This document shows positions 12,182-14,818 of a stretch of DNA of 37,431 nt, piece by piece. Numbering within the stretch: the first letter of the stretch is position 1; each line of letters opens with the position of its first letter. The stretch is from Ignavibacteria bacterium (GTDB lineage Bacteria > Bacteroidota > Ignavibacteria > Tepidaquicellales > OLB5): positions 1 through 37,431 of the forward strand of contig JABFSP010000105.1 of assembly GCA_013140565.1 (NCBI GenBank), read 5' to 3'. The translations under genes and the position numbers were made by a program. The notes beneath the pieces were generated by a model. The model had not been told where the DNA came from. It worked only from the letters and a program-made list of their open reading frames with translations, and ran no database searches.

Positions 12182-13168
12182 ATGAAAATAATTACAGGCG
12201 GTGCGGGATTCATAGGCAGTGCGATTTGCTGGAAACTTAATTTATCAGGTATCACAGAAATACTAATTGTTGATGAAGATACCAAAGGTACAAAAAAACA
12301 GAATCTGGAGGGACTGAAATTTACTGATTTTGTTGATAAGGATACATTTTTGAAGCAGGTAGAAAAAGGGGCAATTAATTATAAGGTCGATTCCATTTAT
12401 CATATGGGTGCGTGCAGTTCAACCACTGAAAATAATATGGAGTACCTTATAGAAAATAACGTTGAGTATTCCAAATCACTGGGTAAATGGTGCTTAAGCA
12501 ATAATGCAAAATATATTTATGCATCAAGCGCGGCAACGTATGGCGATGGTGCAAACGGGTTTGATGATGATATTGAGACTATTCCAAACCTGAAGCCGCT
12601 CAATAAATACGGCTTATCCAAGCAGATGTTCGATATGTGGGTGATAGAAAACAAGTTGCTTGATAAATTTACGGGGCTGAAATATTTTAATGTATTCGGA
12701 CCTAATGAAACGCACAAAGGCAGTATGCGCTCAATGGTAAATAAGGCGTATGACCAGATAAAAGATACAGGTAAACTTAAACTCTTTCGTTCACTTAAAC
12801 CTGAATACAAAGATGGCGAGCAGATGCGTGATTTTATCTATGTAAAGGATGCGGTTGATATGACTTTGTTCTTTGATCCAATAAACGGTGAAGGGAAAGA
12901 CAGCACGGGCATTTATAATATAGGCTCAGGCAGAGCCGCAACATGGCTTGATGCCGCCAATGCGGTGTTCAAAGCGCTTGGCAAAGAGCCGCAAATTGAG
13001 TGGATAGATATGCCCGATAATATAAAGGACCAGTACCAGTATTTCAGTAAAGCAAATATGAGCAAGCTCCGCTCCGAGGGATATAAAAATGATGTAATGA
13101 AATTAGAGGATTCTGTGAGGGATTATGTTGAAGGATATCTTGTGACCGGGGAATTTCTTAAAGTTTAA
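12182..13168 (+). CDS. hldD: ADP-L-glycero-D-manno-heptose-6-epimerase
   Basis: 328 aa; ITGGAGFIGSAICWKLN Rossmann motif, HMGACSSTTENN, YASSAATYGDG, NKYGLSKQMFD, characteristic of RfaD/HldD. Confidence 0.92.
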   Translation: MKIITGGAGFIGSAICWKLNLSGITEILIVDEDTKGTKKQNLEGLKFTDFVDKDTFLKQVEKGAINYKVDSIYHMGACSSTTENNMEYLIENNVEYSKSLGKWCLSNNAKYIYASSAATYGDGANGFDDDIETIPNLKPLNKYGLSKQMFDMWVIENKLLDKFTGLKYFNVFGPNETHKGSMRSMVNKAYDQIKDTGKLKLFRSLKPEYKDGEQMRDFIYVKDAVDMTLFFDPINGEGKDSTGIYNIGSGRAATWLDAANAVFKALGKEPQIEWIDMPDNIKDQYQYFSKANMSKLRSEGYKNDVMKLEDSVRDYVEGYLVTGEFLKV

Positions 13169-13180
13169 TGATCGAAAAGC

Positions 13181-13292
13181 AAAACAAAAGATAGACACAA
13201 AGGCACAAAGACTCAAAGAAAAGCAAAAGAAAGCAGTAATTTAAATAGGAAAAACTTTGAGCCTTGGAGACTTAGAGTCCGCTTTATGTTTT
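13181..13292. repeat. Imperfect inverted-repeat unit 1 (L1..R1)
   Basis: L1 aaaacaaaagatagacacaaaggcacaaagactcaaag; R1 aactttgagccttggagacttagagtccgctttatgttt. Confidence 0.7.
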
Positions 13293-13320
13293 AAATGATA
13301 AAGACAAAAGTTTTATTGAA

Positions 13321-13725
13321 ATGGAAATGAAAAAGGAATTAATCCCATTAAGTGATAGGGAAGAAGAAATTGGTAAAATAATTGTTAATGCGGCATATAA
13401 AGTACATTCTGCTCTTGGTCCGGGTTTGCTGGAAAAAATCTATGAAATTTGTTTTGTTCATGAATTGAAGAAAGCAGGTTTAAATGCCATAAGGCAAATT
13501 GATTTGCCCATTCAATATGATGGTATTATATTTGATGAGGGCTTAAGAATTGATGTATTTGTTGAAACTTTAGTTATATGTGAAATAAAAGCAGTTGAAC
13601 ATGTAAATCCTTTATGGAATGCACAGGTATTAAGTCAATTGAAGTTGACTGATAAACGCCTGGGCTACTTAATTAATTTTAATGTAGAAAAAATTAAAGA
13701 CGGGATCAAGCGAATAATCAGATAG
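13321..13725 (+). CDS. GxxExxY protein (PD-(D/E)XK nuclease-like)
   Basis: 134 aa; VHSALGPGLLEKIYEICFVHELKKAGL and LRIDVFVETLVICEIKAVE (D..ExK core), the GxxExxY family signature. Confidence 0.88.
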   Translation: MEMKKELIPLSDREEEIGKIIVNAAYKVHSALGPGLLEKIYEICFVHELKKAGLNAIRQIDLPIQYDGIIFDEGLRIDVFVETLVICEIKAVEHVNPLWNAQVLSQLKLTDKRLGYLINFNVEKIKDGIKRIIR

Positions 13726-13729
13726 TATG

Positions 13730-13768
13730 AACTTTGAGCCTTGGAGTCTTAGAGTCCGCTTTGTGTTT
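13730..13768. repeat. Solo right arm R2, starting 4 bp after the GxxExxY stop codon
   Basis: aactttgagccttggagtcttagagtccgctttgtgttt, near-identical to R1. Confidence 0.7.
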
Positions 13769-13774
13769 AGTATG

Positions 13775-13930
13775 ATCAAAACAAAAGATAGACACAAAGG
13801 CACAAAGACTCAAAGAGAATCAAAAGCAAAACAGATTATAGATATAGAAGAAAAAAGATAATCAAAAGAAAGCAGATATTTTAGCAGAAAGAATTTTGAG
13901 CCTTAGAGTCTTCGTGTCCGCTTTTTGTTT
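13775..13930. repeat. Inverted-repeat unit 2 (L2..R3), non-coding
   Basis: L2 atcaaaacaaaagatagacacaaaggcacaaagactcaaag (near-identical to L1); R3 gaattttgagccttagagtcttcgtgtccgctttttgttt. Confidence 0.7.
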
Positions 13931-13943
13931 AAAGTTTTTACTT

Positions 13944-14051
13944 AAAAAAATAGATACAAAAGCACAAAGACTTGAAGAAAAGCAGAAGAAAGCAGATATT
14001 TTAATAGAAAGAACTTAGAGTCTTAGAGTCTTAGTGTCCGTCTTGTGTTTT
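13944..14051. repeat. Inverted-repeat unit 3 (L3..R4), non-coding
   Basis: L3 aaaaaaatagatacaaaagcacaaagacttgaag; R4 aacttagagtcttagagtcttagtgtccgtcttgtgttt; shared inner spacer agaagaaagcagatattttaatagaaag. Confidence 0.65.
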
Positions 14052-14074: not shown

Positions 14075-14818
14075 TCATCTTACGGCTTCCCATTCTTTAC
14101 TTACAGATCTGTTTTTGAAGAACACTGAAAACGAATTCTTTGTCCAGTCGCCGAAAACTTTTATGTAGCCAAATTTCCTGTACCTGCGGGGTGATTCATA
14201 TACCAGCAGTTCATTAAGGAATTTGATTTTTCCTTTACCCAGCTTTTTTATTCTTCTGTAAAGGTCGTAGTCTTCGCCTGCGGCAAGGAGCTCATTGTAA
14301 CCATTCACTTTCCTGAATATATCGCTTCGCACCATCTGGCACTCGCCTCTGCCCATTCCCATACCTGCAGCATTCAGAAGTCTTACATAATTATTATAAA
14401 ACCCGTGAAACATTTTATCTGAGAGCCTGATATCATCCGGGAAAACGTGGAACCGGCAGGTGAGTGCAAAGTTCCATTCAAGTGAAAAAGCCTTCATCGA
14501 ATTTGAAAAGAAAAGGTCAGCATCCTGTATCATTGTATCCGCGTTCAGGAAATATAAAAATTCGCCATCTGCCGCTTTTGCTCCTGCATTTCTGCCCTGC
14601 GGAATATTTTGCTTTACGCCCTCCTCGGCCTTCACAACTTTATCAACCAATGGGGTCAAAAGAGATAAAGTGCCATCGGTACTTCCGCCATCTGATATGA
14701 TTATTTCTATGCTGTATTTTTCTTTTAAATGGGGAGTGAATTGTTCCAGTGTCTTAACGATGAGTTTCTCTTCGTTGAGTGTGGGGATGATTACGCTTAT
14801 TTTCGGAGTGTTTTGCAA
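14075..14818 (-). CDS. Glycosyltransferase family 2
   Basis: 247 aa; ISVIIPTLNEEKLIVKTLEQF, IIISDGGSTDGT, FLNADT, AAGEDYDLYRRIKKLGK motifs. Confidence 0.88.
   Translation of the reverse strand: MQNTPKISVIIPTLNEEKLIVKTLEQFTPHLKEKYSIEIIISDGGSTDGTLSLLTPLVDKVVKAEEGVKQNIPQGRNAGAKAADGEFLYFLNADTMIQDADLFFSNSMKAFSLEWNFALTCRFHVFPDDIRLSDKMFHGFYNNYVRLLNAAGMGMGRGECQMVRSDIFRKVNGYNELLAAGEDYDLYRRIKKLGKGKIKFLNELLVYESPRRYRKFGYIKVFGDWTKNSFSVFFKNRSVSKEWEAVR

Follow-up and report, generated by a model that had tools for sequence, protein, structure and literature searches.

The locus

The window, by which we mean the whole 37,431-nucleotide stretch of contig JABFSP010000105.1 that was analysed, contains a small GxxExxY gene set in an array of imperfect inverted repeats, each made of a left (L) and a right (R) arm. 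An earlier note on this DNA had described the gene, three units of the L..R form and one R arm on its own, all of which were recovered within a few bases of the positions it gave. The arms of the three units were located by direct reading and a repeat search, and the features are as follows.

12182–13168, + strand: ADP-glyceromanno-heptose 6-epimerase, upstream neighbour and left border of the insertion site (TIGR02197, 373.8 bits)
13189–13218, + strand: L arm of unit 1, AGATAGACACAAAGGCACAAAGACTCAAAG
13255–13292, + strand: R arm of unit 1, CTTTGAGCCTTGGAGACTTAGAGTCCGCTTTATGTTTT
13321–13725, + strand: GxxExxY gene, 134 aa, PD-(D/E)XK-fold nuclease-like (TIGR04256, PF13366, alignment, AlphaFold2, PDB search)
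13732–13768, + strand: solo R arm, CTTTGAGCCTTGGAGTCTTAGAGTCCGCTTTGTGTTT, directly 3' of the GxxExxY gene, whose stop is at 13725
13786–13815, + strand: L arm of unit 2
13894–13930, + strand: R arm of unit 2
13951–13978, + strand: L arm of unit 3, diverged
14014–14050, + strand: R arm of unit 3
14075–14818, - strand: family-2 glycosyltransferase, downstream convergent neighbour and right border of the insertion site (PF00535, 61 bits)

The repeat search found the whole 107-nt unit three times (66–82% to the reference), the R region four times and the L region three times, and an Rfam search of the window gave 0 matches. As single-stranded hairpins the units folded unevenly: unit 1 had a z score of -1.2 on the + strand and of -4.3 on the - strand, unit 2 one of -3.0 and unit 3 one of about 0, so the description of the repeats as imperfect is right and hairpin stability is not their defining property. 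The inner spacer that had been read as common to the units is held by units 1 and 3, and only in part by unit 2. The proposal that L-R-[GxxExxY]-R is the autonomous form was corrected, the basic form being L-gene-R; the L-R-gene-R-L-R-L-R array of the window looks like a product of local amplification and decay. The L-R-gene-R-L-R arrangement recurs at the ccm site of the genus genome G010, and G001 has the simple L-gene-R form.

The host genome encodes two further GxxExxY genes, one on contig C223 with arms ACCGCAGAGATGCAGAG / CTCTGCG...CTCTGCGGT, and a broken copy on contig C386 with AACCGCCAAAAGCGCTAAG-type arms on either side. The arm sequences of its three GxxExxY genes are all different, and their construction is identical. 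Tandem copies at the C386 locus (L007) take in the 3' end of an M24 peptidase gene together with an arm unit, and those at locus L135 in G002 take in the 3' end of the epimerase gene and an arm unit, which suggests duplication of the end of a neighbouring gene plus the element.

The GxxExxY protein

The open reading frame at 13321–13725 matched TIGR04256 with 130.5 bits (cut-off 35) and PF13366 (PDDEXK_3) with 125.6 bits (cut-off 22), and the alignment showed conservation of D78, E88-x-K90, Q102 and the G35-E38-Y41 motif. In an AlphaFold2 model of high confidence (pLDDT 94.5, pTM 0.87), residues D78, E88 and K90 map to strands 69–81 and 85–90. PD-(D/E)XK folds, including lambda exonuclease (probability 0.90) and archaeal Cas4 (probability 0.92), headed the Foldseek matches in the PDB, which were weak (best E 0.0097, none at E 0.001), and a sequence search for relatives with solved structures returned none. 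We are confident from the model that the protein has the core fold of the PD-(D/E)XK superfamily with an intact D-ExK site, as the earlier note had supposed, and nuclease activity is predicted.

Estimates of dN/dS for the gene, at about 0.02–0.12, indicate purifying selection. Searches of phages, viral contigs and PHROGs found no relative, and a phage origin was rejected on this basis; a known defence system was likewise rejected, as PADLOC gave no match. Five GxxExxY genes (L080, L084, L097, L098 and L100) with ~67–74% identity to the window protein were found in the JAUYDP MAG, labelled Dehalococcoidia, where they represent contamination or transfer.

Arms accompany GxxExxY genes across genomes

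Matching inverted arms at 62 loci from the phylum far exceeded cross-locus controls. On the same contigs, such arms flanked 63 of 80 GxxExxY genes versus 4 of 122 other open reading frames (Fisher 3e-31), and the best-scoring of the four armed controls was itself a second GxxExxY gene. In a larger set of 194 elements, which adds 60 more phylum loci, genus loci and named genomes, matching arms were present in 139 (72%) versus 6.7% of cross-paired controls. Three-unit arms had a density ~80x higher in the 400 nt around GxxExxY genes (18 in 22 kb) than in the remainder of those contigs (2 in 204 kb), and arms were undetectable at about a quarter of the genes. Outside the Bacteroidota, matching arms were found in MAGs of Sumerlaeota, Nitrospinota, Lentisphaerales and Neomarinimicrobiota, some of which assignments may be blurred by MAG contamination. 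They were also found in a plasmid record of Bacteroides finegoldii (L320, NZ_OY725952.1), a 24.8-kb "plasmid" in which thrA, radA and asparaginase genes surround a GxxExxY element with near-perfect arms, and which is possibly a chromosomal circle or a misassembly.

The enrichment of repeats beside GxxExxY genes that the earlier note had put forward for checking was thus strongly positive, and gene and arms form a discrete unit, the arms being systematically attached across the phylum and beyond. Gene and arms behave as a single long-lived element, and its presence in some species and its absence or reduction to repeat scars in their sisters (below) suggest a family of DNA elements that moves slowly and has not been described; a literature search of limited coverage, in which absence is not proof, found no publication tying GxxExxY to repeats.

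Anatomy of the arms

Each arm is a row of about two to four degenerate 7-nt units, CRCNRA(G/T), spaced from start to start by 8, 9, 10 or 11 nt (118, 143, 114 and 42 cases, respectively) and mostly lying at most 60 nt from the gene. Upstream of the gene, 477 units are in sense and 143 in antisense orientation, and the pattern is mirrored downstream. Mismatches between L and R arms are mainly A/T transversions, as expected from the free fourth position (N) of the unit, and wobble mismatches have no strand bias (106 sense versus 105 antisense), which led us to reject RNA pairing as the main cause of the arms. An arm looks like a row of putative protein-binding sites rather than a conserved stem.

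Across genomes, arm features and protein identity vary together (rho -0.28, against a permutation sd of 0.036), and do so equally with GC matched; within genomes the covariation is weak (p about 0.04). This covariation indicates that gene and arms belong together, and its cause could be recognition, or else joint inheritance. If the genes are indeed cargo of such elements, the covariation would provide a natural series for how a small PD-(D/E)XK protein recognises DNA.

Occupied and empty alleles in sister genomes

Orthologous loci of sister species were compared at four sites (epimerase|GT2, ccmA|ccmB, TDO|SDR and methyltransferase|GT4), which yielded alleles with the element, alleles with arms but no gene, alleles with a solo arm and cleanly empty ones. 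Both of the findings whose absence the earlier note would have held against its proposal, enrichment of the repeats next to GxxExxY genes and presence/absence polymorphism at orthologous loci, were therefore obtained.

At the window site, between the convergent epimerase and glycosyltransferase genes, ten genus genomes were compared, in which epimerase orthologues mark the insertion site and the glycosyltransferase neighbour is also found. Orthologous GxxExxY genes are present in G000, G012, G008 and G003, arms without a gene in G002 and G004, and the element is absent in G001, G005 and G007. In G010 (C31, L215/L134; 92% epimerase identity) the site holds a gene of the S23/four-helix-bundle type with unrelated arms, CAAATGTCAAAGCTCAAATGTCAAAT / TTTGACATTTGAGCTTTGACATTTGGCATT. 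The intergenic gap of G007 (L140) contains a different palindromic unit, GTAGCAGGCGCGGCTTGCCCGCC ... CGGCAGGCAAGCC.

The ccmA|ccmB site is occupied in G010, G008, G002 and G001, and nine other genomes, G000 (98% ccmB identity) among them, have a clean empty site; empty and occupied alleles there are too diverged and A-rich for a clean target-site duplication to be read. The TDO|SDR site has full elements, solo R arms in G000 and G010, a solo L arm in G003, a gene-less L..R unit in G007, an empty allele in G011 and, in G004, a gene surrounded by a tandem array. At the methyltransferase|GT4 site, the host genome (C121) has a gene-less unit versus a full element in G012, G003, G009 and G001, and S23-type arms are found in G010, G008, G002 and G011. 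In G002 (L309), the S23-type arm unit starts just 3' of a GxxExxY L-arm remnant, as if one element type had inserted into or replaced the other.

GxxExxY genes at the same site are vertical orthologues with common neighbours, and the element has seldom come to occupy a new site; among the elements compared, no two sites carried near-identical copies. The element appears mostly vertical and slow, rather than actively jumping. Upstream neighbours lie on the same strand as the gene in 70 of 76 cases versus a baseline of 116 of 150 (77%; p 0.006), a modest excess, and a strong claim about orientation was scaled down once this baseline had been computed.

Gene-less copies

The earlier note had proposed that short, MITE-like copies lacking the gene exist. 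Gene-less copies do occur, and some at the ccm site are internal-deletion derivatives, but the copies that were traced are relics in situ. The spacer of unit 2 at the G010 ccm site keeps the 3' end of the gene, its alignment to the final ~45 nt scoring higher than any of 500 shuffles; the spacer of the other unit there scores above the 95th percentile of shuffles, and that of G004 comes close to the shuffle maximum. The spacers of the window units were rejected as GxxExxY gene remnants, their alignment being not above shuffles. Six other arm sites were found in the host genome, and the one traced, on C121, is an in-situ relic. Because the full element is present in sister species at the positions of the traced gene-less copies, these copies are best seen as relics left in place, formed by local deletion, or as tandem derivatives, rather than as transposed copies.

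Interpretation and alternatives

The gene with its arms is an intergenic unit present in multiple phyla, polymorphic for presence and absence, locally amplified, scarred by decay and under purifying selection. We consider it rather probable that it represents an undescribed family of inverted-repeat elements with its own PD-(D/E)XK nuclease, matched to its own arms and working in a manner similar to REPIN-RAYT systems, though with a nuclease of unrelated fold, the catalytic role being inferred. The nuclease would bind the rows of sites in the arms that flank it and nick or cut at the ends of the element; on rare occasions this would place a copy in another intergenic gap, and more often the element would be duplicated in tandem, deleted internally or lost where it stands.

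A homing-type element, in which the nuclease cuts element-free alleles, repair copies the element in, fixed sites pass through cycles of gain, decay and loss, and the arms are binding or autoregulatory sites, would account for same-site orthologues gained and lost between species, the strong purifying selection, the intergenic position and the PD-(D/E)XK fold. We regard it as unlikely, since homing can do without inverted arms of several units at either side and has no need of tandem arrays or gene-less L..R units, and the arms belong to the element rather than to the empty site. Free-standing homing endonucleases are similarly small nuclease genes in intergenic gaps, patchy at fixed sites, but the inverted multi-unit arms are part of the GxxExxY element, and to our knowledge no target cleavage is known for GxxExxY proteins, unlike those enzymes.

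Two further explanations seem to us very improbable. In one, an RNA-level element like the intervening sequences (IVS) of 23S rRNA, the arms would pair in the transcript and be processed, and the protein would serve RNA. S23/four-helix-bundle genes, the IVS protein family, share the architecture and even sites, and the same-strand excess of upstream neighbours is in keeping with this, but the wobble between arms has no strand-specific excess, arm mismatches follow the free N of the unit, the window units fold unevenly and rRNA is absent near the 20 loci examined. In the other, a host-domesticated regulatory module that has lost mobility, nuclease and operator-like arms would control the surrounding operon; purifying selection, vertical inheritance and sense orientation inside operons agree with such a role, yet each site has different, unrelated neighbouring genes, the element is missing in sisters without replacement, and genomes carry multiple paralogues, some of them broken.

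Relation to known systems and to S23 elements

The preferred reading, a nuclease-bearing inverted-repeat element, has its closest functional analogue in REPIN-RAYT, which combines a vertically inherited nuclease with paired repeats, decaying singlets and local amplification (PMC8049555). Shared with it are a nuclease gene tied to short inverted repeats, vertical inheritance, gene-less paired units, decaying singlets and local amplification (PMC3116915, PMC8049555). REPIN-RAYT has an HUH/Y1 tyrosine transposase, whereas the only gene of the GxxExxY element is of the PD-(D/E)XK type, and lacking the HUH transposase it is not a member of that system. It also differs in having arms that are arrays with 8–11-nt units, directly flanking and matched to each gene, several paralogous pairs per genome, and gene-less copies that are in-situ relics where traced. 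IS elements and MITEs resemble it in pairing a coding element with inverted ends and internally deleted derivatives (as at the ccm site), but the GxxExxY element has no DDE, HUH, serine or tyrosine recombinase, and its gene-less copies traced so far are relics in place.

The closest structural analogue is the 23S rRNA IVS with an S23p open reading frame (PMC4990558), a small ORF of similar size inside terminal inverted repeats, and S23-family genes with arms of their own occur at GxxExxY sites in the genus. Unlike IVS, the GxxExxY element lies outside rRNA (neither the Rfam search of the window nor the 20 related loci gave any), its protein is unrelated, its arms consist of repeated units and no RNA pairing constraint was found.

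Hypothetical proteins of the GxxExxY and S23 families are very frequent in annotations: 152 of 297 sampled genomes had a match to the former and 114 of 148 to the latter. Should both prove to be carried by an inverted-repeat element whose recognition arrays match them, one explanation would cover many unexplained genes together with the surrounding repeats of the CTTTGTG/CTCTGCG type. Tentatively, and at somewhat less than an even chance, the GxxExxY and S23/four-helix-bundle genes may be interchangeable cargo of one unrecognised element class, with inverted arrays of short degenerate words (8–11-nt units for GxxExxY, 7-nt units for S23), mutual replacement at intergenic sites and a recognition code between protein and word. 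Inverted arms enclosed 15 of 30 S23 genes (L102–L131) versus 4 of 122 controls, and in these arms AG recurs with a 7-nt period (maxima at 7, 14, 21 and 28), a motif unlike the GxxExxY unit.
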